From positions 1 to 56,159 of the forward strand of contig JADGNZ010000039.1 of NCBI GenBank assembly GCA_017883205.1: a DNA stretch of 56,159 bases, read 5' to 3'. The stretch comes from Thermoanaerobaculia bacterium (GTDB lineage: Bacteria; Acidobacteriota; Thermoanaerobaculia; Gp7-AA8). How positions within the stretch are numbered: the stretch's first letter is position 1; each line of letters opens with the position of its first letter. The position numbers and the translations under genes are program-made. Below the pieces are notes generated by a model. The model searched no databases, was not told the origin of the DNA, and worked only from the letters and a program-made list of their open reading frames with translations. This document shows positions 19,477 to 55,398 of the stretch, piece after piece.

Positions 19477-19534
19477 GGTGTTCCTGCGCGATCGTGATTA
19501 CACGCCGAAGAGCGATTGGCTCCGGCGGCTGTGA

Positions 19535-19550
19535 TCACCCTTCCCTGTGA
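19535..19550. promoter_or_regulatory. TCAC-N8-GTGA operator, copy 1 (metal ABC / UspA)
   Basis: Exact TCAC ccttccct GTGA, 58 nt upstream of the leftward ABC ATPase start. It lies in the first copy of the 54-bp direct repeat. Confidence 0.6.
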
Positions 19551-19658
19551 CGCAGCCACGTGTCCGCCATCACGAGCCGGTCAAACGATAGGGTCCAAAC
19601 GATAGGGCCCAAACGATAGGGCCAGGCCTTCGGGCCGCGAACGAGGCGGCCCCGTCGC

Positions 19659-19714: not shown

Positions 19715-19741
19715 ATAGCCGGGCTACTCCGGCGGCTGTGA

Positions 19742-19757
19742 TCACCCTTTCTTGTGA
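19742..19757. promoter_or_regulatory. TCAC-N8-GTGA operator, copy 2 (UspA)
   Basis: Exact TCAC cctttctt GTGA, 71 nt before the UspA start at 19829, in the second copy of the 54-bp direct repeat. Confidence 0.6.
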
Positions 19758-19828
19758 CGCAGCCACGTGTCCGCCATCACGCGAGAGGCGTCCGCCTATC
19801 ACGGGCTTCGCGAACCGAAGGGACGACG

Positions 19829-22615: not shown

Positions 22616-22703
22616 CAGTCCTCGTCGTCACCGATCCGGCCACGCTTTGACCGTCGCTGCGCAATCACAGGAATCGGTGGCGGCCGACACCGCCTTTCTC
22701 GCC
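22616..22703 (+). pseudogene. 3' tail plus downstream flank of the triple Usp gene
   Basis: SVLVVTDPATL-stop matches the end of the Usp gene at 42772-44076 (RPVLVVTDPATI-stop). The identity continues past the stop codon for about 45 bases (CGCTGCGCAATCACAGGAAT, CGGTGGCGGCCGACAC). Only the last ten or so codons are present. Confidence 0.8.
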
Positions 22704-24641: not shown

Positions 24642-25601
24642 ATGGCAAGACCACTACGAATCGAGTTCGCTGATGCGCTTTATCACATCACCTCCCGCGG
24701 TAATGAGCAAAGGCCCATCTTCCGCACCATCCAGGACCGCCAGACCTTTCTCCTCTTCCTCGGAACTGCCGCGAAGCGATTCCGGTGGTCAGTCACGGCG
24801 TGGGTCTTGATGACGAATCATTACCATCTCGTCGTCCAGATCGCCGAGCCCAATCTGTCCAAGGGGATGCATTGGCTCAATAGCGCCTACGTCAACTGGT
24901 ACAACCGCATCCACAAGCGAAGCGGACATCTGTACCAGGGGCGCTTCGATGCGCGCCTCATCGAAAAGGAGGCGTACTTCACCAATGTGCTGCGGTACGT
25001 CGTCCTCAACCCGGTGCGCGCGAAGATGTGCGCGCGTCCGGAGGACTACCGGTGGTCCAGCTACCGCGCTACGGCCGGACTGGAAGCGGCGCCCGAGTGG
25101 CTTGATCTCGCCGCAGTCGACAACCTCTTCGGTCCCGAGCGCGAGCCTGCGCAGGCCGCCTATCGTGAGTTCGTCCTGGCGGGGATCGGGTGTGAAGACC
25201 ACCTGTGGGACAACTTGACGAACCAGCTTTACCTCGGAACGGAGGCGTGGTCGAAGGCGATGCGCAAACAGGTCGAGACCAAGCCGCGATCGACCGATCA
25301 TCCCCGGACGCAGCGTGCAGTAGGGCGGCCGAAGATGTATGAAATCGTGGACGCGGTAGCGAAGGCTGCCGGCGAGACGGCGGAATCGATCCGCCAGACG
25401 CCCGGGAACATACTCCGGGGCCTAATTGCATGGATCGGATGGCATGAAGGCCTTGTGACCCTACGTTCGATCGCAGCCTCGCTCCGGCTCCGGAGCGAAG
25501 GTTATATCTCGAATCTGATCAAGGCGTGCGAGCTTTCGTTCAGTAGTAACACGACTCTGCTCGCTCATTACGACTGCGCGATCGCACAATTGCGCGCCTG
25601 A
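24642..25601 (+). CDS. REP-associated tyrosine transposase (RAYT), Y1/IS200-like
   Basis: 319 residues. The N-terminal domain begins RPLRIEFADALYHITSRGN and carries the HUH motif TNHYHLVV (His60, His62). SGHLYQGRFDARLIEKEAYF and LRYVVLNPVRAKM follow, the latter region holding the presumed catalytic tyrosine. About 130 C-terminal residues end in a helix-turn-helix resembling the DnaA C-terminal domain (VTLRSIAASLRLRSEGYISN). Length and order match long RAYTs rather than IS200 TnpA. These single-copy enzymes bind and mobilise REP palindromes. REP-like palindromes flank the gene on both sides and recur across the window. The frame is intact. Confidence 0.88.
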   Translation: MARPLRIEFADALYHITSRGNEQRPIFRTIQDRQTFLLFLGTAAKRFRWSVTAWVLMTNHYHLVVQIAEPNLSKGMHWLNSAYVNWYNRIHKRSGHLYQGRFDARLIEKEAYFTNVLRYVVLNPVRAKMCARPEDYRWSSYRATAGLEAAPEWLDLAAVDNLFGPEREPAQAAYREFVLAGIGCEDHLWDNLTNQLYLGTEAWSKAMRKQVETKPRSTDHPRTQRAVGRPKMYEIVDAVAKAAGETAESIRQTPGNILRGLIAWIGWHEGLVTLRSIAASLRLRSEGYISNLIKACELSFSSNTTLLAHYDCAIAQLRA

Positions 25602-33084: not shown

Positions 33085-33247
33085 CAGGCTCGAATTCGCG
33101 CCTAAGTTGTTGCAAATGCATTGCTTGACTGCTTCGTGGATTCTCGCAGGCCGCAGGGCCGTGAAATTGTATCCAAGCCGTAAGTCACTCTCAGACCGAA
33201 AGTTGCGCGAGAAAACCCGAGCCGGCTGAAGTGCGAAGGTCTGACCC
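33085..33247. repeat. 165-bp repeat, copy 1
   Basis: Starts CAGGCTCGAATTCGCGCCTA and ends GAAGTGCGAAGGTCTGACCC. Shares most of its length with 33926-34090 (AAGTTGTTGCAAA, GATTCTCGCAGGCC, GTAAGTCACTC, AGACCGAAA). The two copies flank the minisatellite. Confidence 0.78.
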
Positions 33248-33290
33248 ACCCGATCCCTGCGCGATCATCGGGGAGATGAGAAGTGCCGGG

Positions 33291-33768
33291 TCTCTTGCGA
33301 GAAGCCCCCGACCCTCTCGCGAGAAGCCCGCGAGCCTCTTGCGAGAAGCCGCGGGTTTCTTTCGAGAATCCCACGCTTCTCTCGTGAGAAGCCCACCTGG
33401 TTTCTTGCGAGACTGGGGCTTCTTGCGAGAAGTCCTCGGCTTCTTGCGAGAAGTCCGCTGGTTTCTTGCGAGAAGTCCTGGGCTTCTTGCGAGAAGTCCG
33501 CTGGTTTCTTGCGAGAAGTCCTCGGCTTCTTGCGAGAAGTCCGCTGGTTTCTTGCGAGAAGTCCTCGGCTTCTTGCGAGAAGTCCTGGGGCTTCTTGCGA
33601 GAAGTCCTCGGCTTCTTGCGAGAAGTCCTCGGCTTCTTGCGAGAAGTCCGCTGGTTTCTTGCGAGAAGTCCTCGGCTTCTTGCGAGAAGCCCTCGGCTTC
33701 TTGCGAGAAGCCCCGAGCCTCTTGCAAGAAGCCTCGACCTTCTCGCGAGAGACTCCAGGGCTCTCGCA
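33291..33768. repeat. Minisatellite of about 23 palindromic 21-22-bp units
   Basis: Units are built on CTTCTTGCGAGAAG plus a 7-8-nt linker (TCCTCGG or TCCGCTGGTT). The core is self-complementary apart from one T-G pair; at the right edge and at unit 2 it is the perfect palindrome TTCTCGCGAGA. Central units are nearly identical while the edge units diverge, as expected for an array homogenised by slippage or unequal exchange. Two unit types alternate in the centre (GGCTTCTTGCGAGAAGTCCT and GGTTTCTTGCGAGAAGTCC). Flanked by copies of a 165-bp repeat. Confidence 0.85.
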
Positions 33769-33822: not shown

Positions 33823-34090
33823 GGGGTCACACCTTCGGTCCTCGTTAGTCTCCTCGAACGTGGAGATAACTCGCGCAGTTTCATTGACTTGCTTCAGGCC
33901 ACACCGGAAAGCATCGCCGCGCGCCCAGGCTCGAATTCGTGCCTAAGTTGTTGCAAACGCATCGCTTGCCTGCTTCGTTGATTCTCGCAGGCCAACAGTG
34001 CCGTGAATTGTGTCCAAGCTGTAAGTCACTCGCAGACCGAAACTTGCGGGAGAATGACACCGAACGACCGAAGTGCAAAGGTGTGACCCC
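33823..34090. mobile_element. 268-bp MITE-like or compound palindromic element
   Basis: It begins GGGGTCACACCTTCGGTC and ends with AAGTGCAAAGGTGTGACCCC, so the termini are inverted (GGGGTCACACCTT / AAGGTGTGACCCC). The left 62 bases recur at 5414-5476 and the right 165 bases at 33085-33247. There is no coding capacity. Its right end abuts the 5'-truncated DUF6064 fragment. Termini resemble those of the REP palindromes (GGGGTCAGACCTTCG), so it may be mobilised by the same transposase. Confidence 0.65.
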
Positions 34091-35078: not shown

Positions 35079-37673
35079 CTACCGCCCGCCGTCGCCTGCA
35101 GGCGCGACGACATCGCTCGCAGAGTCCAGCGATCCAATCTGCGCACGAACGAAGACCTTCTGGATCTCGACGATCACGATGGGCAACAGCACACAAATCG
35201 CGAGCACAACGGCATCGGTGGCGGAAAGGGGAGCGAGGTCGAGGAGACGCGCCAGCGGCCGGAACCTGACCGCGAGTGCCTGGAGTCCGATCACTGTCGC
35301 TGCCGCGGCCCAGAGGTGGATGTTGTCGAAGATGCCGGCGCCTGCCGGCATGACGCGCGAGCGGCAGTTGAACGTGTGACCGAGCTGCACTGCGACGAGC
35401 GCGGAGAGCGCGATGGTTCGGGCGTGCGCGCCTTCGCCCCAGGTGTGCAGCGCCCACACGTACGCGGCGAGAGCGATGGCGGCGAGCATCGCTCCTTGCC
35501 ACCCGATCAGCAGGAGAAATGACCGGTTGAGAAGATCGCCGCGCCGGCGCCGCCCATGCATGCGCCTCGGTTGCGGCGGCTCGAGCGCGAGTGCAAATGC
35601 CGGGAAGATGTCGGTGACCACATTCATCCAAAGAATCTGCAGCGGCAGGAGAGGGAGTGGAAGGCCGGCGATGATCGCCGTAAACACCATCAGCACCTCA
35701 CCGAGATTGTGAGAGAAAAGCAGGTGAACGAACTTGGTGATGTTTGCGTAGATCGTCCGTCCTTCCTCGATCGCGGTTACGACGGTGCCGAGGTTGTCGT
35801 CGGTCAGGACCAGATCGGCGGTTGCCCTCGCGGCGTCGGTACCGCTCTTGCCCATGGCCACTCCGATGTCGGCGCGCCGCAGCGCAGGAGCATCGTTCAC
35901 GCCGTCACCGGTTACGGCGACGATCTCTCCCGCGTTCCGCAGCGCATCGACGACTCGCAACTTGTCCTCGGGTGTAATGCGCGCGAAGACATCCGTCTCA
36001 CGAGCAAGCCGGGTCACCTCGGCATCGCTGCGGTCCGCGAGCTCGCGCGCGTGGACGACGACGGGCGGCCGGCCGCTACTCAGCCGCAATTCTGATGCGA
36101 TCGCGCGCGCCGTCTCGACCTGATCGCCAGTGAGCATCACGATGCGTATGCCTGCATCGTGGGCGCGGGCAATTGCTTCCGCCGCGGCGGGACGTGGAGG
36201 ATCGGCCAGTGCTGCGAAACCGAGAAACGTGAAGCCGCTGGACAGGTTCTGATCATCGCTGCTCTTCGCGAAGGCGAGGATGCGGAGGCCGGTGGATGCG
36301 AGCTGTTTGTTCATTGCCGACAGCTCGGATACACGCGCGGTGCTCAAGTCACTGCACATCTTCAGGACTACCGAGGGGGCGCCTTTGAGAGCGAGCAGAC
36401 GATTGCCGCCGGCGGTTTCGTGCACCGTAACCATGTGCCGCGTGGCCGGGTCGAACGGCACCTCGAGCACCTTGCGATGCGTCCGGCGCAGTCCGGCGAC
36501 GTCGATGCCGGCGTCCGTTGCGGCGGCCACGAGCGCGACTTCGGTCGGATCGCCGACGGTCGCGCCGTGCTCGATGACGGCATCGCTGCAGAGTGCTCCG
36601 ATGCGGAGGAGCTCGTGTGAATCAGTGGCCTCGATCCGGCGCACGGTGAGCTGGTTCATCGTCAGCGTGCCGGTTTTGTCGGTGCAGATCACCGTCGTGC
36701 TGCCGAGCGTCTCCACGGCGGGAAGCTTCCGGACGATGGCGTGACGCCGGGCCATGCGCAAGACGCCGACGGAGAGGATCAGCGTGGTGACGGCCGGAAG
36801 CCCTTCCGGGACGGCAGCTACGGCCAGACTGATTCCGACCTCGATCATCGCCCACAACGGATTTCCGCGAAGCACGCCGGCGATGGCGACGACTGTACCG
36901 ATGCCGAGGACGATCCAGACGAGGGTGCGTCCAAGAGAAGCGAGACGTTGCTCCAGCGGCGTCGGTTGCAGCTCGATGTCGCGAACGAGGCGGCCGATCT
37001 TTCCCAGCTCGGTTGCGTCTCCTGTCGCCGTCACGACTGCGCGCGCCCGCCCGGCCGTCGCGAGCGTGCCGAGGAAAACCATCGACGTGCGCTCGGCGAG
37101 CGGTGCGTCCGCTGGAACGGCATCCGCAGATTTTGTGACCGGCGCGCTTTCTCCGGTGAGCGCTGCTTCCTCGACGCGTAACGCCATCGTTTTGAGCAGC
37201 CGGGCATCCGCGGGGATGTGTGCGCCGGGGTCGAGAAGGATCACGTCACCCGGGACGAGATCCTCCGCATCGATGTTGGATTGCATCCCGTCACGCAGAA
37301 CGCGCGCGCTTGTCCGCACCTGAATCCTCAGGCTTTCGAGGGCGCGCTCGGAACGCCACTCCACGATGAAGCCGACCACCGCGTTGATGAGAAGCACGCC
37401 GATGATGGCCACTCCTTCGGCGACGTCGCGCGTCACGAACGCGATCGCGGCTGCGGCGGCCAGCAGCGCGATGACGACGCTGTAGAACTGGCGTGCGGCA
37501 ATGATCCACAACGAGCGGCTGGCATCGCGGATCACGACGTTCGCTCCGAAGCGTTCACGCCGTTGAAGCACCTCAGCATCCGTGAGACCCCGGCTGCTGT
37601 CGACGCTCAGCTCTTCCACGATAACGGCCGCTGGCCGCGCATAGGGATTGGCCGGTAGTTGCGGACTTTCCAC
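35079..37673 (-). CDS. P-type cation-transporting ATPase (P2/P3-like)
   Basis: 864 residues from GTG. In order: a cation-ATPase N-terminal domain (SVDSSRGLTDAEVLQRRERF), the actuator TGESAPVTK, the phosphorylation motif VICTDKTGTLTMN with Asp332, the hinge VTGDGVNDAPALRRADIGVA, the nucleotide domain, and ten or so membrane helices including PEGLPAV in M4. PEGLPA favours Ca2+/Mn2+- or Na+-type P2 pumps over H+ pumps. It lies 63 nt upstream of the TVP38 gene. An exact operator ends 43 nt before its start, TAGGCT lies at -12 to -7, and the divergent side once served an osmC-usp pair now decayed. Confidence 0.92.
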   Translation of the reverse strand: MESPQLPANPYARPAAVIVEELSVDSSRGLTDAEVLQRRERFGANVVIRDASRSLWIIAARQFYSVVIALLAAAAAIAFVTRDVAEGVAIIGVLLINAVVGFIVEWRSERALESLRIQVRTSARVLRDGMQSNIDAEDLVPGDVILLDPGAHIPADARLLKTMALRVEEAALTGESAPVTKSADAVPADAPLAERTSMVFLGTLATAGRARAVVTATGDATELGKIGRLVRDIELQPTPLEQRLASLGRTLVWIVLGIGTVVAIAGVLRGNPLWAMIEVGISLAVAAVPEGLPAVTTLILSVGVLRMARRHAIVRKLPAVETLGSTTVICTDKTGTLTMNQLTVRRIEATDSHELLRIGALCSDAVIEHGATVGDPTEVALVAAATDAGIDVAGLRRTHRKVLEVPFDPATRHMVTVHETAGGNRLLALKGAPSVVLKMCSDLSTARVSELSAMNKQLASTGLRILAFAKSSDDQNLSSGFTFLGFAALADPPRPAAAEAIARAHDAGIRIVMLTGDQVETARAIASELRLSSGRPPVVVHARELADRSDAEVTRLARETDVFARITPEDKLRVVDALRNAGEIVAVTGDGVNDAPALRRADIGVAMGKSGTDAARATADLVLTDDNLGTVVTAIEEGRTIYANITKFVHLLFSHNLGEVLMVFTAIIAGLPLPLLPLQILWMNVVTDIFPAFALALEPPQPRRMHGRRRRGDLLNRSFLLLIGWQGAMLAAIALAAYVWALHTWGEGAHARTIALSALVAVQLGHTFNCRSRVMPAGAGIFDNIHLWAAAATVIGLQALAVRFRPLARLLDLAPLSATDAVVLAICVLLPIVIVEIQKVFVRAQIGSLDSASDVVAPAGDGGR

Positions 37674-37716
37674 GCGTACAGCCTAGCGTCAGGAGTGAGG
37701 CGCGACGCAAGCGCCG

Positions 37717-37732
37717 TCACTTTGCTGTGTGA
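37717..37732. promoter_or_regulatory. TCAC-N8-GTGA operator between the P-type ATPase and the osmC remnant
   Basis: Exact TCAC tttgctgt GTGA, 43 nt from the ATPase start (37673) and 46 nt from the ATG of the osmC remnant (37779). The corresponding site in the intact osmC-usp locus is 42293-42308, with the same spacer length but different spacer sequence. Confidence 0.65.
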
Positions 37733-37778
37733 CTGCGGACGCGGTGCGGAAGCCGAAAACGGAACGTCTTCGCCCCTC

Positions 37779-37916
37779 ATGAGCCGGATCACCGTGTCGC
37801 TTCCGGGCAGAGTCGCGGTCGTCCGCGCTGATGAAGGCTACTTGCTGAAGAACGATCCGTCGCGTTTCGCGCTGCCGGCGCGTGCAGCCAATGGTCGAAA
37901 AGGGGCATTGTCATGA
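37779..37916 (+). pseudogene. Decayed osmC gene (5' part)
   Basis: MSRITVSLPGRVAVVRADEG aligns with VSTMTVSFPGGVAVDAAYAG of the intact gene at 42353, as do the 100 bases upstream. Identity then fades and most of the domain, including both catalytic Cys regions, is missing. The frame runs into the next remnant (TCATGACGATC), whose ATGA junction is preserved from the intact pair (37913 versus 42772). Confidence 0.75.
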
Positions 37917-38170
37917 CGATCCTCTGTGCTACCGATTCTTCCAAGCCCGCAGCCGATGCTGTTGACGTCGCGGCGGACATCGCCAGAAAACGAGGCGAAT
38001 CGCGCCTGCTCTGGCACGCCGTGGAACCGCAGGCCGGCGATCCCGTCTCACTGGGTACGTGCAGCACCGTGATCGGTTGGCCGGAAGAAGAGCTCGTGGA
38101 GCGTCGTCGAATGCCTTGCGCGCGTCAGAGGGCTCATCCGCTGATGACCGATGGCCGGAGCCCGCGCGAG
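37913..38170 (+). pseudogene. Decayed triple-Usp gene (5' part with two deletions)
   Basis: MTILCATDSSKPAADAVDVA matches MTIVCATDFSQPAADAIDVA at 42772, and similarity runs to HAVEPQAGDPV. A deletion of about 85 bp then joins to CSTVIGWPEEEL. A second deletion of about 95 bp joins to GCGTCGTCGAATGCCTTGCG, equivalent to the VVERFARV codons, out of frame. Beyond about 38170 nothing aligns. Confidence 0.8.
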
Positions 38171-38246
38171 ATGGCTGATCGGCGACGGCAACTCAGGCCC
38201 ACATCTTGTTGCTGACGATCGTCATCGCGTCGGGTGAGAGATCACG

Positions 38247-38822
38247 TCATGGCGCGGTGAGGCCGGTAACAATCCGATCGGCGAGCATCGCGAGTGCCCG
38301 GCTTATGCCTGACGCGATGTTCCCGCTGTCGAGAGATGCGATGCCAACGTCGATGCGCTCGTGGCGCGTCACATCAGCAAGGCCGCTCTGCCTGAGCGTC
38401 CAACGCGCATCGAGAACGACCTTCGCATCAGGGCCGGCGGCAAGCTCCTGGAATGCGAGATCGATCGACCGCGCCGGACCGCCCGGCTTCACCGCGCCGG
38501 TGAGGATCACCATTCCGTCGGGCAATCTTCCGGCCAGATCGAACGTCAGGGTGTGCCGGACCATCGGCGCGAGCGACGCCTGCCACAGCTCCGCGGTCCG
38601 CACCTCGAGCTCACCATCGCCCTTTCGCACGACGATCTCGCGCCGGTCGAGTCCGGGCGGAAGCTCGACGGAATCGATCCCGATTGGAACACCTCTCCTA
38701 TTTGCGACCTGGCCCGGGAGCGGTTCGAGTGTGTAGATCCGGATCTGCGAACGCGACACGAGAGCACAGCCGGCGAGAACGATCGCCAGACCGAGGATCG
38801 GCAGTCGGGCGTGCTTCCTCAT
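38247..38822 (-). CDS. pqiC: PqiC/YmbA-type transport-associated lipoprotein
   Basis: 191 residues. The signal ends in a lipobox LAGC (ILGLAIVLAGCALVS), so it is an outer-membrane-directed lipoprotein. The domain (IRIYTLEPLPG, GIDSVELPPGLDRREIVVRK, LWQASLAPMVRHTLTFDLAG) matches the ABC-type transport auxiliary lipoprotein family that includes PqiC. PqiC forms a ring that docks the PqiB needle at the outer membrane. The gene overlaps pqiB by 4 nt and ends the pqi operon. Confidence 0.85.
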   Translation of the reverse strand: MRKHARLPILGLAIVLAGCALVSRSQIRIYTLEPLPGQVANRRGVPIGIDSVELPPGLDRREIVVRKGDGELEVRTAELWQASLAPMVRHTLTFDLAGRLPDGMVILTGAVKPGGPARSIDLAFQELAAGPDAKVVLDARWTLRQSGLADVTRHERIDVGIASLDSGNIASGISRALAMLADRIVTGLTAP

Positions 38823-40489
38823 TTCGCTCTTCCTCTCCCCTTGAGCAAGGCGTCGGGATTCTCCGTAAGGTAGTCCGCGAGCGCGCGGACGGACTCCGCG
38901 GCGCGCGTCAGCTCTTTGATCAACACGCCGAGGTCGTAATTCTGTTGAGGCGCGGTGGCCATGAGCTGTTGTGCCCGACCGGCCGCGGTCTCGGCGGACG
39001 CAGCCGCATTGCGCAGGCTCTGCGCGATCGGGCCGGCGTTCTCCCGCGTGACTGCAGCGACCTTCTGGATGTCGGCCAGCGAACGGTTCATGTTCTCCAG
39101 GCTTTGTGAAAGCGCTGGATCATGCACCAGCGTGTCGATCCGTGCCGCGGTGCTTTGCAGATGCGAGGCGATGTCCTCCATCGGAAGGTTTTGAATCCGC
39201 GCGGCGAGCTGGTTGATCGCCTCCATCCCGGAGGCGGTGGATGCCGCCGGAATGATCGGTGGATCGTGCTCGACTGCGAGCCGCGCCGTGTCGCGTCTGC
39301 CGGCCATATCGAGTGAAATACCGCTCGCCCCAGGCAGGATGAGGCTGGACGCGAGTGTTGCGCGCATCCCTTTCTGCACGAGTTTCTGCAGCGCGGCATT
39401 CATCCTGAGGCGCAGCTCTTCCCGCGTGGTCGTATTCGTCACGGCGAGCTCCAGACGGCGCGGATCGATCTCCAGCGTAACAGGAGTCTCGAGCGTCCCG
39501 CTGTCGGGCAGATAGCGGAGCCGGACATCACTCACGCGGCCTACCTCCACTCCCTGCATCTGGACAGGAGCGCCGGCCGTGAGTCCGCGCACAGGTCCCT
39601 GAAAGTAGGTGACGTAGGTGAGCTGCGGTCCGGAGGCCGCGGCCTGTGCCGCCGCCTGTGATTCGTACAGCTCGAAGTGCGTGCCGTTCGCGACCGGCGC
39701 TCCGGGCAGCACTTCCGGCGTCGAGAACTCGACCGGCGCGTTGAGGAGCGACGGAAGCGACGTCCCGCCCATGGAGAGGCCTCCGGCGGTGAGCGAGAGG
39801 GAGAGTCCGGCGGCGCGCCAGAAGCGGGTGCCTTGTCTCACGTGATCCGCGAACCGCTGGCCGACGAAGGCGTGAACGGTCGTGACGTGAAGTGCCTCAT
39901 CGTATTCGGCGCCGAGGATGCGGCCGACGCGGATGCCCTGGAACTGCACCGGAGATCCCATCGCGATCGAGCCGAGTCCGGTCGCATCCAGCAGGAACGT
40001 CTTGCCCGCTTCGGGCGGCGCGAGGATCGGTGCGTACTCCTGCCCCTTGAACTCTCGCGTGTCTTCTCCTTCTCCCGGTGCGATGGCGATGTACGTTGTG
40101 GACAGGAGGCTGCCCAACCCGCCGCTTTCCAGACTCGGCTCCACGATCCAGAAGCGTGTCCCTGTTTTCAGTGCATGCTTCATCGAACCGTCCATCGAGA
40201 TGCGGACGACGACCTGTTCGAGCTTCTTGTCGATCGTGATCTTCTCGACGGTCCCCACTTTCGCTCCGCGGAATCGCACCGGATTGAAGCGATCGAGACC
40301 GCGCGCTTCGGCGAAGCGGACGGTGATATCTCCTCCGCCGAGAAGGCCGTACCGAACGATGAGATATCCGACCACGGACATCGCGAGCAGCGGCACGATC
40401 CAGATCCACGGCGACCACTTCCTCATCGTTACCCGCGCCTCGGGAGGCGCCGCGGTTCTGCGTTCGTCGACCTTGTCGTAGTCGCTCAT
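38819..40489 (-). CDS. pqiB: PqiB-type MCE protein
   Basis: 556 residues from the ATG at 40489, which overlaps the pqiA stop by ATGA. A cytoplasmic tail and one membrane anchor (WIWIVPLLAMSVVGYLIVRY) precede three MCE domains (about 45-135, 160-235, 285-390), recognised by DITVRFAEARGLDRFNPVRF, AIAMGSPVQFQGIRVGRILG-like and LTAGAPVQMQGVEVGRVSDV. A long helical C-terminus follows that builds the needle. PqiB bridges inner and outer membranes for phospholipid transport and envelope-stress tolerance. Complete by family standards. Confidence 0.9.
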   Translation of the reverse strand: MSDYDKVDERRTAAPPEARVTMRKWSPWIWIVPLLAMSVVGYLIVRYGLLGGGDITVRFAEARGLDRFNPVRFRGAKVGTVEKITIDKKLEQVVVRISMDGSMKHALKTGTRFWIVEPSLESGGLGSLLSTTYIAIAPGEGEDTREFKGQEYAPILAPPEAGKTFLLDATGLGSIAMGSPVQFQGIRVGRILGAEYDEALHVTTVHAFVGQRFADHVRQGTRFWRAAGLSLSLTAGGLSMGGTSLPSLLNAPVEFSTPEVLPGAPVANGTHFELYESQAAAQAAASGPQLTYVTYFQGPVRGLTAGAPVQMQGVEVGRVSDVRLRYLPDSGTLETPVTLEIDPRRLELAVTNTTTREELRLRMNAALQKLVQKGMRATLASSLILPGASGISLDMAGRRDTARLAVEHDPPIIPAASTASGMEAINQLAARIQNLPMEDIASHLQSTAARIDTLVHDPALSQSLENMNRSLADIQKVAAVTRENAGPIAQSLRNAAASAETAAGRAQQLMATAPQQNYDLGVLIKELTRAAESVRALADYLTENPDALLKGRGRAK

Positions 40490-41691
40490 GCCACTTCTCC
40501 AGCCGCCTCCCACATGAGCCTCGGCTTGAAGAAAGCCATGGCGAGCATGAGCAGAGCGATGACCAGGAAAAGCGGAGTCGCACCGGGCCCGGCCACGAGG
40601 TCACGGATTCCGCGGACGTCGACGATCGGAGCGTCGATGGCGGCAATGAACAGGATGATCATCGGCCAGCGAGCGAGGCGTTGCAGAACGCGATACAGGC
40701 GCGTTCGCGTCACCAGACCCCGCGTGCTCGGAAAGCGCACCTTCGCGAGCATCCAGATCAGGCCGATCAGCTCAAGGGCTGGGATCACGACGCCAGTTGC
40801 CACCACGACGACCCCGTACTGCCAATAGCCTCGGTCCGCCAAAAGCTCCACCGTGCCGAGGAACGTGTGCTGCCAGACGCCGGTGAGATTGTCGTTGACG
40901 ATGATCGCCGCCGTGAAGGCGGGGACGCAGAGAGGAATTGCAACGGCCACGGCTGCGAGGGCCGGCGCGAATCGCGGTGCGATGTCGCGGTCGAGAGTGT
41001 GGCCACAGCGCGGACAGCGGTCACCCGGCCGCCGTGAAATCGCCGCCATCTCGCAGACATCACACGAGGCGACGTGCCCGTCGGGAAGCGAAGTGGCGTC
41101 GGGAAGGATCGCGTTCCAGACCGCACGCCGGTCCAGCGATCGATCGCCGATCAGCGCGAGGATGGCCACGGCGAGATAGCACCAGGCGCCTACGCCTGCC
41201 TCGACGACGGTCGGAGCGGAAGCGCGGAAGTACGCGACGACGCCGGCGATGACGACGACGTCCGGCATGCTCCAACTCGCCAACTGCTCGCTCCATCGGA
41301 AAATCCTTCCCGGCTGCCAGATTCTCCAGCCCCATCGCAGCGAACCGAGAGCGATGACCTGAAAAAGCGCGCGGAATGCGGGGAGAAGAAAAGCGAAGAG
41401 GAGAACCCCGAAGGCGAGCGGAAACCACACCTCGGTATAGATGACCGGAACGCTGGAGACCAGACGGCTCTCAATGAAGCCGAGCTTCCGGATCGTCGAG
41501 TCCATGACCGGCAGGAGCACCGCAGACGGGAGCAAGATGCAGATCGCCATGGCGCAGGCGAGCGTGAGCTCGAATCCCATCCGCGAATGGCGCGCGAGGA
41601 AACGCCGACAGCGGCGACACACGGCAACCGCGCCCAGCGGAAGCGGGGGAATGACCTGCGTCGCGGCGCAATCGGCACAAGTGATCGTCAT
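40486..41691 (-). CDS. pqiA: PqiA-type integral membrane protein
   Basis: 401 residues. Two repeats each begin with a zinc-ribbon: CADCAATQVIPP ... CRRC (3-29) and SCDVCEMAAISRRPGDRCPRCG (about 210-231). Each is followed by four membrane segments. This is the PqiA/YebS architecture, the inner-membrane partner of PqiB in lipid transport. It overlaps the upstream 91-residue gene and downstream pqiB by 4 nt each, so the four genes form a tightly coupled operon. Confidence 0.9.
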   Translation of the reverse strand: MTITCADCAATQVIPPLPLGAVAVCRRCRRFLARHSRMGFELTLACAMAICILLPSAVLLPVMDSTIRKLGFIESRLVSSVPVIYTEVWFPLAFGVLLFAFLLPAFRALFQVIALGSLRWGWRIWQPGRIFRWSEQLASWSMPDVVVIAGVVAYFRASAPTVVEAGVGAWCYLAVAILALIGDRSLDRRAVWNAILPDATSLPDGHVASCDVCEMAAISRRPGDRCPRCGHTLDRDIAPRFAPALAAVAVAIPLCVPAFTAAIIVNDNLTGVWQHTFLGTVELLADRGYWQYGVVVVATGVVIPALELIGLIWMLAKVRFPSTRGLVTRTRLYRVLQRLARWPMIILFIAAIDAPIVDVRGIRDLVAGPGATPLFLVIALLMLAMAFFKPRLMWEAAGEVA

Positions 41692-41963
41692 GGATACTGG
41701 CGGTCCAGCCAGACGCCGAACGGCTCAGCCGGCGCTTCTCTTGTTTCCGGATCCGGGCACTGACGCTTTGTCAGATGTAATTCCCGCGCGATCAACGCAT
41801 CGGCTCCGGCCTGCCTGATGATCGGAACCAGAACGACAGCAAGCTCGTCGTAGGCACGCCGCGCCGCCGCGGCGATCGCAAGCACCGAGGCGCCTGAACC
41901 GGCTCGACGCGTGATCACACCCGCGGCGAACGGCTCCAGGACGGTGACTTCGAGCGATGTCAT
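41688..41963 (-). CDS. Small conserved-looking protein coupled to pqiA
   Basis: 91 residues, soluble, mostly helical. Its visible features are TRRAGSGASVLAIAAAARRA, a helix LAVVLVPIIRQAGADALIAR and HLTKRQCPDPETRE. I cannot name a family. The stop overlaps the pqiA start as ATGA, strongly suggesting it is translated and first in the pqi operon. An upstream regulator or membrane-peripheral partner are both possible. Confidence 0.6.
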   Translation of the reverse strand: MTSLEVTVLEPFAAGVITRRAGSGASVLAIAAAARRAYDELAVVLVPIIRQAGADALIARELHLTKRQCPDPETREAPAEPFGVWLDRQYP

Positions 41964-42231
41964 GGATCAGCGATGCAATAGAGAATGACGGCGGTCCGTC
42001 AGGCCTGAAATACGGGTCGGTCCGAGAATTCGCGGCGCAGTTCGTCTTGACCTCACGGCCGATCATAGGGAGGTGACGCCAACGCCGTCGTGCGGTACAT
42101 CACCGGCGGGTGTTACCTTCGCCACAGCGCGCGCGCAACGGCGATCACAAAACCGTCTCATCGGAAACGCCAGCTTCATCGGCGTTTTCCAAGTCCTGTG
42201 GGAAGCCGGTCGAACGTTCGCTCGTCTGGCA

Positions 42232-42247
42232 GTTGCGGACCCTTCAC
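42232..42247 (-). pseudogene. First codons of a lost P-type ATPase gene
   Basis: Leftward from GTG at 42247 the sequence reads M-K-G-P-Q-L-P, against M-E-S-P-Q-L-P at the start of the intact ATPase (37673). GTTGCGGAC is shared in the DNA, as is the 45-nt distance to the operator and TACGCT at -12 to -7. Nothing downstream of this resembles the ATPase. Confidence 0.6.
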
Positions 42248-42292
42248 CCGTGCAGCGTAGCCTTCGAGGACAAGAGCGACACGAAGCCGTCG

Positions 42293-42308
42293 TCACGATG
42301 CGGCGTGA
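42293..42308. promoter_or_regulatory. TCAC-N8-GTGA operator of osmC-usp
   Basis: Exact TCAC gatgcggc GTGA, 44 nt before the osmC GTG at 42353, with CATCTT at -12 to -7 of that start, identical to the hexamer at the CBS/hydrolase promoter (31355). Confidence 0.65.
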
Positions 42309-42352
42309 CGGCTGATGCAGAGCGGCGGCCGCGATCGGAACATCTTCACTAT

Positions 42353-42775
42353 GTGAGCACGATGACCGTGTCGTTTCCGGGCGGAGTTGCGGTCGACGCG
42401 GCGTACGCGGGCCACACCGTCCACACCGATCAGCCACGATCTGACGGAGGAACGGATGCGGCGATGTCGCCGTTCGACCTCTTCCTCGCATCCATCGGTA
42501 CCTGCATGGGGTTTTACGCGCTCCGCTTCTGTCAGGAGAGGAATCTTTCGACCGAGGGATTGAGCCTCATGCTGGAACCGCTTCGTGAAGGGGATGGCAA
42601 GCGCCTGACGGCGTTGCGAATCGCGGTCGAACTTCCTCGTGCATTTCCGGAGAAGTATCGAGGGGCCATTGAACGCGCCATCGACCACTGCGCTGTGAAA
42701 AGCCAATTACTGAATCCTCCGCGCTTTGAGCTGCGCGTTAGCGGACCCAACACTTCGGAGGAGGCATCGTCATGA
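42353..42775 (+). CDS. OsmC family peroxiredoxin-like protein
   Basis: 140 residues from GTG at 42353. This start is chosen because the decayed copy has ATG at the equivalent position (37779) and because of the operator spacing; ATG at 42362 is possible. An OsmC fold is seen in SPFDLFLASIGTCMGFYALR, with the first redox Cys, and AIERAIDHCAVKSQLLNPPR, with the second. It also has the extended beta sheet typical of the OsmC/Ohr thiol-dependent peroxidase superfamily. Its stop overlaps the Usp start by ATGA. Both are probably expressed as a leaderless stress operon. Confidence 0.88.
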   Translation: MSTMTVSFPGGVAVDAAYAGHTVHTDQPRSDGGTDAAMSPFDLFLASIGTCMGFYALRFCQERNLSTEGLSLMLEPLREGDGKRLTALRIAVELPRAFPEKYRGAIERAIDHCAVKSQLLNPPRFELRVSGPNTSEEASS

Positions 42776-44076
42776 CGATCGTCTGTGCCACCGATTTTTC
42801 CCAGCCCGCCGCGGATGCCATTGACGTCGCCGCGGACATCGCCAGGAAACGAGGCGAGGCGCTCCTGCTCTGGCACGCAGTGGAGCCGCAGGCCGGCGAT
42901 CCCGTCACCGGCTACTTCGAGCCGGTCCGCGCCGGCCGCACCTCACGGCTGGAGAGCGAAGCGGAGCGCATTCGCGCACTCGGAGTTGCTGTGGAATGCA
43001 GCACCGTGATCGGCTGGCCGGAAGAGGAGCTCCTGAAACGAATGCCGGCGGACACCTCGCTGATCGTTGCCGGCGCTCGCGGACATCGGGGAGGCGGCCA
43101 CTGGCTCGTTGGCAGCGTCGTCGAGCGCTTTGCGCGCGTCGTCACCGTCCCGATGCTTGTTGTTCGTGACGCCGCCGCGCTGCGAGAGTGGCTTGCCGGA
43201 GCGCGCAAACTCAGCGTGGTCATCGCGTCGGATTTGAGCGCGGTCTCCGACTTCGCTCTCCGCCGATCCAACATCCTGCAGAAACTTGGACCTTGCGACG
43301 TCGAGCTTCTCTACGTCGAATACCCTCCCGGCGAGTACGGCCGCTTGGGCGTTTCGGGCCAGATCTGCGTACACCGGCCGCACCCTCTGATCCATGAAGT
43401 ACTGACGCGCGAGCTCGTCGAGCGCGCCGGCACAATCAACCTTGGCGGCGAGGTCACCACCCGGATCGGCAAGACCCTCGGCAACACAGGTCCGGAAATC
43501 GCTCTCGAGGCGGAGCAGGCGAATGTGGATCTCGTCATCGTCGGTTCGCATCAGCGGAAGGCAATCCAGCGTGTCTGGTACGAGTCGGTGGCAAACAGCG
43601 TCCTTCATTCCGCGGAGACGAATGTGCTGCTCATTCCCTTCCACTCAGCGGATGAAGATCTCCGCGCGCTCGAATCGCCGCGCCTGTCGACGATCGTCGC
43701 CGCGACCGACTTCTCGCCGTGTGGAAATCACGCGGCCGGTTGGGCGTGTGCGATGGCCCGGCCGGAGACGCATGTCGTGATCATCAGCGTGGTGCGCCGG
43801 GAAGCCGAAGCGGATGAGGCATCGCGCGAACTGGAACGGGTCAAGGCCGCGCTTCCCCGATCGGAGGCTGGCCGGGTAGAAACGGTCGTATTGGTTGGAA
43901 AGGACATCGCCACGACGATCTGCGCGGCCGCCGAGCGTCTCTCTGCGGATGCCGTGATCGTCGGCCGGCATACCAGTTCCCGTGTCGCTCACGTTCTGGC
44001 TGGTTCTGTTTCCGGCGAGGTTCTGGCCCGCAGCCGCCGCCCGGTCCTCGTCGTGACCGATCCGGCGACGATCTGA
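42772..44076 (+). CDS. Triple-domain universal stress protein
   Basis: 434 residues with three Usp domains: 1-130 (MTIVCATDFSQPAADAIDVA ... VAGARGHRGGGHWLVGSVVE), about 145-295 (VVIASDLSAVSDFALRRSNI ... VIVGSHQRKAIQRVWYESVA) and 305-434 (TIVAATDFSPCGNHAAGWAC ... VIVGRHTSSRVAHVLAGSVS). The first has a G-x2-G-x9-G(S) motif fit for ATP; the others are altered. Three-domain Usps are unusual, as most have one or two. Coupled to osmC by ATGA. A 5' copy with deletions lies at 37913 and a 3' tail at 22616, so relatives have been copied twice. Confidence 0.9.
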   Translation: MTIVCATDFSQPAADAIDVAADIARKRGEALLLWHAVEPQAGDPVTGYFEPVRAGRTSRLESEAERIRALGVAVECSTVIGWPEEELLKRMPADTSLIVAGARGHRGGGHWLVGSVVERFARVVTVPMLVVRDAAALREWLAGARKLSVVIASDLSAVSDFALRRSNILQKLGPCDVELLYVEYPPGEYGRLGVSGQICVHRPHPLIHEVLTRELVERAGTINLGGEVTTRIGKTLGNTGPEIALEAEQANVDLVIVGSHQRKAIQRVWYESVANSVLHSAETNVLLIPFHSADEDLRALESPRLSTIVAATDFSPCGNHAAGWACAMARPETHVVIISVVRREAEADEASRELERVKAALPRSEAGRVETVVLVGKDIATTICAAAERLSADAVIVGRHTSSRVAHVLAGSVSGEVLARSRRPVLVVTDPATI

Positions 44077-44638
44077 CGTCGCTGCGCAATCACAGGAATC
44101 GGTGGCGGCCGACACGGGCGCTCTCGGTTCTCGCCGGCATTTCTCACCCGCTTTCACCTTCTTGCTACACCTCGTCCTTTTTCTCTGGAGTGCTTTTCCA
44201 TCGAGCGCCTTCTCCCCCCGCGCTTTTTGCGGGGGGAGAAGGTGGCGAAGCCGGATGAGGGGGGCGTAAATACGCAGGACGATCAACTACGCCTCGTCCG
44301 AACAGCCTGAAAACGCGGCACATGCACGGATGTCGTGCTCGTTGGAACGCCCCCTCACATTGGCCATCTCGCATCCTCCGATTGTTCGTATTCTTAGACA
44401 GGAATCGAGAAGGGTCCAGAGTCGAACGCAACGACGAGGCGGAGCAGACATCCAGCACGATTCCTCGCAAAGCCTATTCATGGGGCAGCGAGCCTCTCGC
44501 ACGGTTACTCCTAGGGAGGAAGTGCCGCTCTTGGCAAAGTCCGGCCGGTCCTCCGTCGATTCGACGCTCGGATGCCGAGGGTTGCGTCGGAACCACGTGC
44601 TCCCAGCGGGTACACTTACACCAGCAATGGAGGCAAAC
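44077..44638. other. Intergenic region upstream of the NHL-repeat gene
   Basis: 562 bases. The first 60 are the conserved flank also found at 22652-22703. A strong hairpin lies at 44208-44242. The frame of the downstream gene stays open leftward to 44330, but that extension has no signal peptide or family match, so I do not include it. Confidence 0.55.
44208..44242. terminator. Strong hairpin, possible terminator
   Basis: Perfect 14-bp arms (CCTTCTCCCCCCGC / GCGGGGGGAGAAGG) with a GCTTTTT loop. No T-run follows on either strand, so it may be a dispersed palindrome rather than a classical terminator of the Usp gene. Confidence 0.5.
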
Positions 44639-48260: not shown

Positions 48261-51200
48261 TCACGTTACAATGATCGTACGTGTAGTTCGTTGCATTTTC
48301 GGAGGCTTCGTGCCCCAGCGATCGAGGCGGCGACGCGTCAGCGCCTCGCTAATCACGAATGCATAACCATCGCTGCGCAGGCGCGTTAGCAGCGGCGATT
48401 CGAGCGAGACGCGGTATCCCGAACCTGCGGATTGGTAAAACCCGTCGCGTGCTCGCACACCGTCGGCCCACCAACCCGATGAGACCATCCGCCGTCCAGC
48501 GAGACTCAGATGCATCGCAAAGGGCGATTCAAACGTCAGACGGTACCGGTCAATCAGCTCGCGCGAGACACTCGCGACAACGGCTGGCAGAGCGTGCCAC
48601 CAGACGCCGGTATGGAGAGCGATCGCGCTGCGGGTCCCTCGCGGCACCGCAACTTGCCGATGCAGGTGGTGTTGCGCCAGTTCAATCGTGACGCTCCGCT
48701 CATCGTCTCGGGCGGCGAGAACTTCGATGTACGCCCGCGGATTAACCGCGATCGTGCCAGCCGCGAGCGCGGGAACGGATGCAGAGTCGATAACGCAGCT
48801 CACGCGGAAGATGTTCTCGCTCCACTCGCGCGTGCCGTGCGTGCCGCTGTCGAAGAGCACCACCGGCCCATCAGGTGCGACCTCTTCACGCGTCGGAACG
48901 CCCTCGAAGGACAGCCAGGCGTCAGTTCCTTCCTCCGAAGGCGCCTCACGGAGCCGGAGGTCTGCGGGTTTCGCCGCGGGCCACTGGAACGGCAAGGCGG
49001 CGTCGTAAAGCGGGAAAATCTGCGACAGCACCCCCTGTGTTCTCGCATCGGCTTCTTTCCCTCCCGTTATTTCACCGAACACCTTCGCGGCAGCGTGGTA
49101 GAAGACGCGCGAGATCGTTGCTTCAAACGGGACAACGTCTTTCTCCGCAGGCGACGAGAAGTCTGCCCACTCGCTCTTCTCAGCTTCAAAGGAGGCGTGG
49201 AAGTCGAAGCCGGCAGAATGCAGTGCGCGCTCGATCCGCCAATCGATCTCGCCCATGTCGAGGTGCAGCACCTCCGCTGCGTACCTCTCGCGTTCTCGAA
49301 TCCGGATCATCACGCGCTCCAGCGTGCGGTTGAAGTCCAGCGAGGGACGAAGGACGCCGCTCGGCACCTCAATGGATGGGGGCGTTGCGCGAAGGATGGG
49401 GGGCGCTGTAGCGTTCGCCGCTTCAGCGCTCACAGCACGAAGGACTCGGGTCAGGTGATGAAGTATCGCCGCGTGCGTATCCGTGTCCCGAATGGAGCGG
49501 ATTTGCAACTGCCAGGGTTGGAGAAGAGCCGGCGCGCGTAGCGCGAGGGCATCCAGCACGAGTGCTGCTAGGACGCGGAGCGTGTCGTCCCTGTGCGAGA
49601 GCCAGCCGACGAGTTGCTCGATGGTGGACGCCGGTTCCTCGACTGCAAGATCGGTCAGTAGGTGTGTCAGTGCGATGCGGCGGTGCAACGCGGGCTGCTT
49701 CCACTCCGAGCTAATCAGATCAAAGGCAATCTGCGGTAACGGGTTCAGCACGAGCGGCGAGGTACGCAGCCAGCCAAATGGGTCGTTTTCTAATGCCGGG
49801 AGCGCAACGAAGAGCGATTTCACGGAGGTGTGGAATGCCTCGTACACGGGCACTATCAAGGGATGGTATGCCGCGGGAAAGCGGTCCAGCGCGCGCACCA
49901 GAAGTGTCGCGGCACCGAAGGCGACTCCGGACTCCTCAGCGTGCTCGGCGATGAATCGGAGCAGGAACTGGAGTGTGTCCTCCGGGTCGTCATCAATGAG
50001 CGGCAGCAGGTAATCGAGCTTCTTATCGTGAAGCCCCCAACTGTGAATCGCCGCGAATGCCCGGCGCAGCATCTCGTGCTGCTGCTTGCGTGCTCCAAGT
50101 GCGCCGTAGCGATCGCCAATGCGTGCGTACTCCGGGTCGGAATCGAAGCTCATCCGGTTCCCGATTGTCTCCACAACCGCGTCCAGTAGCGCCACGTCCG
50201 CCGCACTGTCTACAAGACGTTCACGCGCACTGCGCAACCCATCTGACGCGAAGAAGAGTTTCCCAACGTCCTGCAGCGCGTCGTAAATCCGAGCGTACTC
50301 TCCGAGCGACGCTGCCGCCACCTCGGTCAGTTCCTGCTGTGTGTATGCCATCCCGTCGATCTCGACGGACCGCTCGGCGCGGTCAAGGTCGTGCGTCGCC
50401 GGAGTGCTCGCCGCTTTGAGTTCTGGCGGTGTCGCTCCCGTTTCAATGGCGTTGAGATATCGATCGCAGTCTCCGCGCAGTTCGGGCGGAATCTCATCGA
50501 TGAACGTCTGCTGCACGCGGCGTCGGATCCACTGCGCTGCATCGGCGTCGGAACCTGTTTCCGCAGAGCGTAGGATCGCCGCCCGCGCGCGGAGCCGATC
50601 GCGTGTGCCATCTCCCTCATCCCACGTGCATTCATCGATGCACTCGGACCACACGTACGAAAGACGCGGCGGCGCGCTCTCCACCGTCTGCAAGAATTTT
50701 GCGAGACACGCTGAGTACCGCCACTGTCCCACAGTGTGGGCGTACGTCCGCAGCAGATTCGCGGCAAGCAGCTGGTCGTGCTCAAGCGCGATGTCGAACG
50801 CATAGTGATAGAACCACTTTGTCCCTTTCCCGTCCGTCACGCTACCCATCCATCGACACCAATCGAGAATGTCCGCCAGGCGCAGTGGCGTACCGGCGCG
50901 ATCCACGCGATCGACGATCTTCGCGGCGTCAATTAGCGCATCGACCGTGTGATCCTTCCGCACGCCGTAGCCTCGTGCCGCGCGCACGCCTTCATCTCTC
51001 CACGCGCGTGCTCGTGCCGTGAGTCCAATTCGCGCCGCAAGCTCCGATGCGCGGAGGAGCTGACTGGACCGGTCGAACGTGGTCACAACGTTTTTAGCAA
51101 CCTTCTCGTGGAGTGCTTCAGCGAGAGGCTTCAACTCCTTGTGGATGCGCGGGAACTCGGAAGCGATCTCCAGCGCTTCAAGTTCTGCCGCGTAGTCATG

Positions 51201-54200
51201 CACTACTACTCCGAGGCCGAACTGGAATGTGATGAGCTCGGACGAACCCCAACGCCCCAGCTGATCGATCAACAAGGCTGGATTACCCTGCGCGCGCATG
51301 AAGCCATGAGTGATGTCGCGGAGAAGGCGGGCTACATCGTGCCGAATAGGCGGGAACACCTCGTATACACGCTCCGTCTCCGGCTTCCGATGCGAGATTA
51401 GTAATTCAAGGGGACGCAGGAACTCTGTTGCGTCCGACAGCATGTGTCGCGAGAGCGATACTCGGGCACGCATGGTCATTGCCATCGCGCGCCAGTAAAC
51501 CGAAAGCCAACTCCCCGCCTGCAGCAGGTAATCGTTGACTGTTTCGTATTCGAGATCGCGTTCCGCACCGACGAGTGCTGCGACGTAGGACCGAACGTAA
51601 ATAGCGAGGGATCGTCCTCCCCGCATGAACGCATCGTTATCCGTTGGCGGAAGGTACGTCTCCTCGCCCAAAAGGCCACGCACCGTATGCGTCGAACAGC
51701 CCCGCAGTGCGGCCTCACCCGCGAGGCGCACGCGTTGGTGGGGCTCGGCCTCCGCGGCGGCCAGAAAGAGGGCTGCAGCAGCGTCTTCGTCAGGGGCTCG
51801 GTGAGCAGCAGCGATCGTGGCTTCGGTTCGCCACGCGGCGAGTAGCTCTCGGGCTTCGTCCCCGCGCTGTTCAAGCCTCTTCGTCACCTCGTCAATGGCC
51901 GTGGAATTCACCCGCTCCAGGAGTGCAAGGAGATCTGGCAGGAGGACGAGTGCCGACGACGTGCCCTCCACCCTCGCCTCATGATCGCGAAGGCGGAATA
52001 ACGTGTCTGATAGGTACGAGGCGGGGGTGCGGCTATACGCCGCGACGACTCGCGCAACCTGCATCATGTCTGGCGCGTTGTCGATGTTCTGTGGGATGTT
52101 GCGAAGGAAAGAGCGAGCAACGTCGGTAGCAACGTCGCGACGATCAATGCGCGCCAGCGCAATGAGCACATCGGCGATGTCCGAGATCGAGCGGCCGTCG
52201 AGCGCGTCGGACGTACGCACGAGCGCCGACTCGGGATCGTCGAGCGCGAGCAGCGTCCGTATGAGTTGCGGCACGTCGAGGTGATAGGAGAGTTGGAGGT
52301 GCGTGTTGTTCAGGAGGGAGGTAAGCCGCGCAACGGCAACGGCATCAGCAACAGTTGCCGCTACGCCGATGACGTCGCGGATCGTACGCTTAACGCGAGA
52401 CGCGGGAACCCCCGTACCGATGGCACCGTCAACAAATGCCTCGTTTACGATGGCGATCGCCGTCAGGGTCTCACCCGCAAGCCGTGCCGCGGTGACGATG
52501 TGCTCATACCACGTGCGAGTCGACGCTCGCGTCGACTGGAGGAACTGAAAAATGCGTACATCGAGGTCACGAACTTCGACATCCGACAGGTGCGACACTA
52601 CAAACTCTCGAAAGCTGTTGTGGAAGATGCGGCATCCCGCTGCGGAGACGAGTAGGAGATGCCGCACCTTGGCGTAGGCTCGCGACGCTTCAAATGCCTC
52701 CAATCCCGTAAGTGCCGGGAGCTCGGTCGGGTGCACGGGGAACGGCACCCGGGCGAGGACGCCGCAGGTTCTTGCGAACGCCAAGTCGCTGGCTTCACTC
52801 CACAACGTGGAGTAGTACGCGTCGATATCACCCGTGTACGGCGGAATCTCCCCAATCGCACGGTCAATATCGGCGGTATCGACCTCCGTCAGACGCTCGG
52901 CCACATACCGCAGGTAGAGCGGCAGACCTTCGCCGAGCCGTGCTGCTGCAGCCACCTGCTCACCCGAAAAGCGCTCTCGGATCGCGGCGTATCTGCACAG
53001 ATACTCTTGTGCCTGTGCCTCGGTAAACGGAGGAACGGCGTACTGTCGGTCGGTACCACATGTTAGCTGGATCGACCGCGGTGCATACGAAATGCTCTGC
53101 GACCCGAGGAGGCAGCGCACGCCAGCCGGCAGGACATCCGGCAGGACTGAGAAGAGCTTTTGCGTGTCGTCGGCCGTACGCGCGCGTGCGATGTGATCAA
53201 GGCCGTCAACGATGAGAACAAGCACCTTGCCGTCCGCGCGGAACCGCTCGCCCGCTGCGGCAAGGAGTTGGAGCAGTCGTTGTGGGGAGTAATCGTACCG
53301 TCGCGCCGACGGCAATACGTCGTCGCCAAATGACGCGTAGAGCTGTTCGATGATCGACTTCACGAACTCCTCGCGGGTGACTCGCCGCACGGCGTCCGGG
53401 TCCGTCAAACGGATGAAGCCGTAGTAGCGCACAACCGGTCGTACGTCGCGTTGCAAGCGCTCCGCGACCTGCGTAAGGAGCGTTGATTTGCCGCTTCCCG
53501 GCGGCCCGAGGACAGCGCTGTAGCCATCTGCATGACGGTCCAGAAGCGCCACCACGTCCTCCACCGCGTTCGAAAGATCGATCAGTGTTTTTGTATCAAC
53601 CGGGAAGATCTGCGGGAGCGTGCTGCGGTCGATTGGCAGGGCCTCGAGCACTGCTTCGCGCGTAATAGGCGTCGACCGCCGCGCCTCGTACCACCCTTGC
53701 ACTTGTTCGAAGAACACGGCGGCAGCCATCGCGGGGAGCCCGAGACGCCGTTCGACGTACTCTGCACGCACCTGCGCGCGCAGTTCATCGAGGCCAGGCT
53801 GCCGCAGGTCGAATCTGATACTGCGGAGAAACCGGCCTAACCGTTCAGCGGTGGGGTTTTCGACGGCAGCGCGCAGCCTCTTGTGCGCGGTCTTCTGCTT
53901 TCGTCCTTCGATGAAATCCACGGCAAATCGGTCACCGTCGAGCAACTTTGCGAGGTCTGCACCGGCGGCTCGATTCGAGAACACGTGAATGAACAGCGGC
54001 TTCTTGGAGTCTTCGTATCTGAGCCACGTAGTCCACAAACGAAGAATCGTGAGCTTGATCTTATGTGGATCGTCGAGGAGGTCATCGAGATCGATCAGCG
54101 CATGCGCTGATATGGCGTGCTTGGCCTGAAGTGCATCGATCCGATCACGCGATTCGACCACCACGTCTCCCGCTGGGTCGTACTCGGCGGGCTCATGCCG

Positions 54201-54999: not shown

Positions 55000-55398
55000 C
55001 TAAAGCCAGCTCACGATTTTCAAGCCGGGCACGCGCCTGAAGTGCTTCTCGTTGTTCGTGACCAGCGTGAGACCGAGGGTCAGAGCGTGCGCGGCGATCA
55101 TGGTGTCCGCTTCACCGATTGGCTCGCCACCCTCGGCCAGCTTCGCGCCAATGCGGCCGAACGTCATGGCACAGACGTCGTCGAAGGGGAGAACCGCGAT
55201 GTCGCTCAGGAACGCAGCGACGGCCTGTTCGAGTTTTCGCGACTTCCGCCGCTCCACTCCGAATCGCAGTTCGGCCAGCGTGATTGCGCTGATGCACAGA
55301 TCGGAAGGCTTCTGCTCCACGATCCTCTCGCCCACCTTCCCGACGCCGCGGATGGCGTAGCTCACCGAGTCGGTGTCGAGCATGAAGCGCAACGTCAC
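55000..55398 (-). CDS. vapC: VapC-type PIN-domain toxin
   Basis: 132 residues with a PIN RNase fold: FMLDTDSVSYAIRG (first acidic residue), SAITLAELRFGVERR (Glu), FDDVCAMTFGRIGAKLAEGG and GEADTMIAAHALTLGLTLVT (Asp), NNEKHFRRVPGLKI (Asn/Phe tail). VapC toxins cleave initiator tRNA or rRNA and are inhibited by the cognate VapB. It overlaps its antitoxin gene by ATGA. Confidence 0.93.
   Translation of the reverse strand: MTLRFMLDTDSVSYAIRGVGKVGERIVEQKPSDLCISAITLAELRFGVERRKSRKLEQAVAAFLSDIAVLPFDDVCAMTFGRIGAKLAEGGEPIGEADTMIAAHALTLGLTLVTNNEKHFRRVPGLKIVSWL

Follow-up and report, generated by a model that had tools for sequence, protein, structure and literature searches.

An operator-bearing control region that was apparently once shared by divergently oriented stress genes is present twice, and each copy keeps one of its two gene arms intact, in a 56,159-nucleotide contig of a Thermoanaerobaculia bacterium (Acidobacteriota; GenBank assembly GCA_017883205.1, contig JADGNZ010000039.1; this whole stretch is referred to below as the window). 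One arm encodes a P-type cation ATPase, the other encodes OsmC followed by a universal stress protein (Usp). We consider a truncated duplication of this shared divergent unit to be the best explanation for the whole, with a probability that we place a little above even. The duplication itself is real. Local alignment of 37600-38450 with 42150-43350 gave a score of 336.5 compared to a maximum of 65.75 among 200 dinucleotide shuffles and, within secure limits, 37649-38126 matches 42227-43140 through the ATPase start, the operator, osmC and the first 123 codons of usp, in agreement with an earlier note on this DNA that had described an alignment spanning the operator and both flanking gene starts. 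The match is not confined to the Usp coding part: the upstream half on its own (37640-37860 versus 42200-42420, from the ATPase start through the intergenic DNA into the start of osmC) scored 107.5 compared to a maximum of 40 in 500 shuffles. For the intergenic DNA by itself the score was 43.0 (maximum of 500 shuffles, 31.25). A weak extension of the left tail to about 38240 has a score that was equalled by 3 of 300 shuffles with a nearby target and by 14 of 300 with the whole remaining usp as target. The copies are direct repeats in the same orientation, 4.6 kb apart, on either side of a pqiCBA-like operon. In the best-kept stretch of usp (135 bp), the 15 differences fall at codon positions one, two and three 4, 2 and 9 times, respectively, the pattern that protein-level selection on at least one copy would leave.

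Homology thus extends from one gene start across the intergenic DNA to the other, and in each copy one arm is intact and the other lost, the division that the earlier note had reported. In the left copy, the intact ATPase gene (35079-37673, minus strand, 864 amino acids; Pfam PF00122, PF00689, PF00690 and PF13246) begins with VESPQLP at 37673, and the intergenic region (37674-37778, alignable with 42248-42352) is followed on the plus strand by remnants of osmC (37779-37916) and usp (37913-38126). A net 285 bp have been deleted in frame from osmC, joining approximately its first 14 codons to its tail in a 45-codon fusion that still overlaps usp. The usp remnant has lost a net 78 bp in frame and a net 77 bp with a frameshift, and ends at about codon 123, the remainder of the gene being gone; the open reading frame (ORF) at 37913-38215 retains a weak Pfam Usp match (E 1.3e-5). 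The erosion of left osmC and usp noted earlier is therefore evident, but there are three internal deletions (net 285, 78 and 77 bp) rather than two. In the right copy, as had also been described, osmC-usp is intact and only the start of the ATPase gene survives, with its PQLP motif: the start codon is recognizable together with a few codons after it (VKGPQLP, reading from 42247; 42227-42247, minus strand), and homology ends at about codon 8. Across the intergenic operator region (42248-42352) lie osmC (42353-42775, plus strand, starting at GTG 42353 or ATG 42362; Pfam OsmC 1.5e-12 for 42362-42775) and a usp of 434 amino acids (42772-44076, plus strand; Pfam Usp 3e-50 in three stretches) that overlaps osmC by ATGA. 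The sequence spanning the end of this usp (44044-44100) is 91% identical to 22618-22675 over 57-58 bp.

Because each copy carries both gene starts, the divergent arrangement appears to predate the duplication, which supports the ancestral unit put forward in the earlier note, with the ATPase gene and osmC-usp diverging from one operator. From such an ancestor, a middle block of about 0.9 kb (some 8 ATPase codons, the operator, osmC and some 123 usp codons) would have been doubled around the pqiCBA-like operon by a tandem, segmental or single-crossover event with ends inside the ATPase gene and inside usp. One step of this kind would give the order ATPase-block-pqi-block-usp, with one complete and one truncated arm per copy; the truncated left osmC-usp would later have decayed by deletion, and the right ATPase end would have been a stub from the outset. 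Since the copies flank the operon as direct repeats, the missing right ATPase is explained without decay. In support of a truncated duplication, the right ATPase edge is clean, with no trace of the gene past codon 8 in the 263 bp of 41964-42226 (score of 25.5 versus a shuffle mean of 25.6, reached by 142 of 300 shuffles). Moreover, the operon that intervenes (38247-41963) lacks ATPase, OsmC and Usp neighbours in the nine relatives fetched. It comprises three minus-strand genes (38247-38822, 38819-40513 and 40486-41691; Pfam ABC_trans_aux, MlaD and PqiA) and, upstream of pqiA, a 91-amino-acid ORF (41688-41963, minus strand) with no Pfam match; strong matches to the MlaD gene occur in 10 other genomes of the family, and no match to ATPase, OsmC or Usp was found near the operon in the 9 of these 10 that were fetched.

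The earlier note had instead proposed reciprocal decay, in which the whole unit was duplicated and left osmC-usp and the right ATPase were both lost later. The left half of this proposal stands, while nothing detectable past codon 8 speaks for decay of the right ATPase. Such mirror-image loss would account for the one intact arm per copy and for the plainly eroded left arm, and differences at 33 of the 93 intergenic positions outside the operator arms indicate that there was time for losses. However, no ATPase shreds are left on the right although the decayed left arm left several, and an additional deletion would be needed that removed most of a 2.6-kb gene and ended near its start codon. We regard mirror-image decay as a rather unlikely course of events that still deserves serious weight, and incomplete duplication as the most likely of the two. 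Eighteen bp from the truncated ATPase edge lies a dispersed repeat (42163-42208), which we label REP-like and of which partial copies occur on contigs C83, C66 and C33 of the same genome, those on C66 and C33 at contig ends. Elsewhere in the window there is a gene for an IS200-like Y1 transposase (24642-25601), an enzyme type that accompanies REP-like repeats of this sort.

The operator palindrome GTCAC-N8-GTGAC is perfect in both copies, at 37716-37733 on the left, where the site ends 42 bp from the ATPase start codon and 45 bp from that of osmC, and at 42292-42309 on the right, where the distances are 44 bp to the ATPase stub and 43 bp to osmC. Retention of the same operator at both loci, another statement of the earlier note, is thus borne out at similar distances from the start codons, and these four distances (42-45 bp) fall inside the 42-49 bp range of eleven other sites, which had been picked for a near start. 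Between the two intergenic regions (37674-37778 and 42248-42352), all 10 positions of the operator arms agree, as do 60 of 93 in the remaining alignment; by our arithmetic, complete identity of the arms has a chance of about 0.012 given 64.5% identity. Within the window, nine matches to the operator with at most one mismatch were found versus a shuffle mean of 2.25 (1 of 100 shuffles reaches nine); the nine are not independent, as two pairs are duplicates, and two (3999 and 35904) lie inside genes. The operator has been kept at a near-equal start distance by each intact arm, and the same regulator should still act on both.

Could the osmC-usp control region alone have been copied upstream of the ATPase gene, which would in this way have gained the same operator? 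In each direction the operator sits at a distance from the start that also occurs at other sites, and the ATPase gene is without it in the relatives checked, as would fit such a move. Against it, the right copy also has the ATPase start (VKGPQLP), which places the ATPase beside the block before copying, and the upstream half holding the right ATPase codons, taken as a whole, outscored 500 of 500 shuffles. We therefore hold a move of the promoter block alone to be very improbable, and return to the duplication of the shared unit and its operator.

The 6.37-Mb draft genome contains 64 RTCAC-N8-GTGAY sites. A seemingly large excess over a backwards control (64 versus 4) was rejected as misleading because other half-site spacings predict about 43 per genome, a figure obtained with other spacings of the same half-sites within 296 kb, in stretches picked around sites. 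The longer operator pattern, with one mismatch allowed, likewise gave 45 and 36 matches versus 13 and 8 in the backwards control, and operator matches exceed that control in 18 of 18 genomes of the family. Position relative to genes was determined for 53 of the 64 sites, or 51 after the two sites of the duplication were set aside; among the 11 others was one near the end of contig C71. Nine of the 51 lie 50-56 bp from a start codon (a range chosen after the distances were seen, with gene starts from our own codon-usage caller), compared to none of 60 differently spaced control sites and to 0.55% of background positions. Furthermore, 35 of the 51 sites are intergenic versus 20 of the 60 controls and 23% of background positions. 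The operator looks real on these grounds, with positional preference arguing for it more strongly than the number of sites.

Twenty proteins encoded with a site about 40 to 135 bp upstream were scanned. The nearby genes encode an acetate-CoA-ligase-like protein, 2-oxoacid:ferredoxin oxidoreductase, FeoB, a BcrAD/BadF-type activase, CcmE, a cytochrome c assembly protein and two CRP-family regulators, together with a PAS-GGDEF-EAL protein, a Clp ATPase, a thiolase, malic enzyme/phosphotransacetylase, a TetR regulator, a PQ-loop protein, a nucleoid-associated protein and an AI-2E transporter; four of the 20 proteins have no Pfam match. Some of these genes would suit anaerobic life, and this part of the target list suggests a regulon for conditions of little or no oxygen. 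The regulator would then belong to an oxygen or stress response, as some of the other operator sites suggest. Members of the CRP/FNR family were considered; two are encoded in the window and two more lie beside operator sites. The consensus sites of this family are TGTGA-N6-TCACA and TTGAT-N4-ATCAA, and the operator, compared by eye, is unlike both in its half-site (RTCAC) and its spacing of 8; we did not accept the family as the regulator. The two CRP-family regulators in the window (6456-7187 and 13096-13947) carry clustered N-terminal cysteines, as in FNR-type oxygen sensors.

An undivided unit, which the earlier note had proposed to seek in related genomes, was looked for and was not seen in the relatives examined. 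Usp was searched in 17 other genomes of the family (E<=1e-25) and the ATPase in 59 other genomes at E<=1e-150, a threshold that does not cover more divergent ATPases. Family member G012 carries a VTT gene, followed by genes for the ATPase (53% identical) and Usp (46%), the last two convergent, tail to tail. In G006, also of the family, a different ATPase (38%) is followed on the same strand by Usp (41%), and both are preceded by cupin (84%) and AI-2E-type transporter (71%) genes that also occur in the window. G004 encodes the ATPase (55%) on a contig of 6.4 kb that lacks a Usp of this kind, and G001 and G002, which are of the same genus as our genome, have no close match to either Usp or the ATPase at the above thresholds. 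In G347, of the same class, Usp directly precedes OsmC (locus L213, 6395-9799), next to genes for a sensor kinase and a response regulator, both named from sequence and not by family search; upstream of the sensor kinase there is one operator site, with one mismatch. At phylum level (396 genomes, holding part of the family only), a Usp profile at E<=1e-60 matched only this genome and G012, OsmC at E<=1e-8 matched 102 of the 396, this genome included, and no ATPase match was found in 16 OsmC neighbourhoods from these 102. Among 49 Usp loci taken from a collection of 84,980 species, many of them on short contigs, the fetched stretch of 10 holds a P-type ATPase, in several orientations and in one case 6 kb away. 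OsmC was found neither at these 49 loci nor at three relatives' loci with the window's OsmC as single query, which could miss distant OsmC; a Pfam search found OsmC somewhere in 24 of the 27 genomes behind Usp loci. In plasmids, 19 records match OsmC, all with less than 60% identity and uninformative. A Corallococcus locus (L059) with divergent ATPase and Usp genes was not counted as an undivided unit, as other ORFs intervene. Taken together, Usp and ATPase genes associate repeatedly, Usp and OsmC do so at least once more, and the divergent three-gene arrangement is seen in this window only, among the loci examined.

Another conceivable history is that the two copies were acquired separately from related donors, each with the block. 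The absence of close Usp and ATPase matches from G001 and G002, the reshuffling of the neighbourhood among relatives and the strong divergence outside coding sequence (60 of 93 positions identical) are all compatible with such xenologous copies. Yet two separate insertions a mere 4.6 kb from each other and in the same orientation, with one truncation each, make for a less simple history; we judge separate acquisition improbable. Several observations also weigh against the duplication of a shared unit that remains under one operator. First, the ancestral arrangement is deduced from the two copies, and no undivided unit was found in the relatives examined, where the search for OsmC covered part of the family. 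Second, the ATPase homology on the right is short, at about 8 codons; the single event that we propose is undated and no junction sequence proves it, and the left copy shows that large deletions occur here, so a large deletion could also have removed an ATPase copy on the right. Third, no good operator site was found in the stretches checked at the related loci of G012, G006, G004 and G347, the 64 genomic sites are only a modest excess over the number predicted, and the genes beside them are mixed and not all anaerobic.

A limited literature search returned nothing on the ATPase/osmC-usp locus or on the RTCAC-N8-GTGAY site. In the concept of duplication-degeneration, or subfunctionalization, duplication is followed by complementary loss. 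The present case resembles it in that a unit exists in two copies, each serving one original function beside the same control element; it differs in that the loss of an arm is here probably truncation by the duplication itself, and in that genes are partitioned around a shared operator, not operators around one gene. As for gene content, the mycobacterial DosR regulon is a parallel, being an oxygen-limitation regulon in which genes for Usp and for a P-type ATPase occur. In Myxococcus xanthus, the NmpR regulon likewise links a P-type ATPase and universal stress proteins to the use of oxygen, with one NmpR-bound region sitting between divergent genes (PMC11841059). The NmpR site is GCGCA-N5-TGCGC, at sigma-54 promoters, and the M. 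xanthus ATPase is tied to the copper supply of cbb3 oxidase (PMC11841059). Our locus has the same kinds of gene, for universal stress proteins and a P-type ATPase, but differs from the NmpR case in its site, RTCAC-N8-GTGAY, and in its ATPase, which matches Pfam cation-ATPase N- and C-terminal families.

Other features of the window include an array at 33290-33742 with units about 21 bp apart that are built on TTCTTGCGAGAAG; it is flanked by direct repeats (33085-33213 and 33926-34054) that lie 841 bp apart and are 90-93% identical. A 2022-amino-acid NACHT/AAA protein is encoded at 48261-54329 and a PIN-domain gene lies at 55000-55398. Separately, the similarity between the two sites of L162 (score 86) was set aside as probably an artefact of overlapping flanks, and L177/L179 (score 88) look like a dispersed repeat.

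An ABC transporter gene at 18760-19476 and, at 19829-20743, a called usp make up a second divergent unit in the window. The operator there lies inside a 55-bp block that is present at 19520-19574 and 19727-19781 (96% identical) around a repeat-like stretch of 152 bp, and each arm has its own operator copy, at distances from the called starts of 66.5 and 79.5 bp, outside the 50-56 bp range. With these two cases in one window, it is a doubtful but conceivable generalization that insertions splitting divergent stress genes are kept in this genome when the shared operator is duplicated as well. If true, two-way switches would repeatedly come apart through operator-duplicating insertion while co-regulation is preserved.

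The locus adds a new case to an evolutionary class that is already known, a small and clear example of a shared switch that has been divided. Divergent genes are tied together by their shared control region, and how they can be split without losing co-regulation becomes testable at one locus, where both separated genes are seen to keep the operator because it is independently recognizable by its preferred distance from start codons. The same site provides a candidate operator for a possibly oxygen-related, uncharacterized regulon in the Acidobacteriota.

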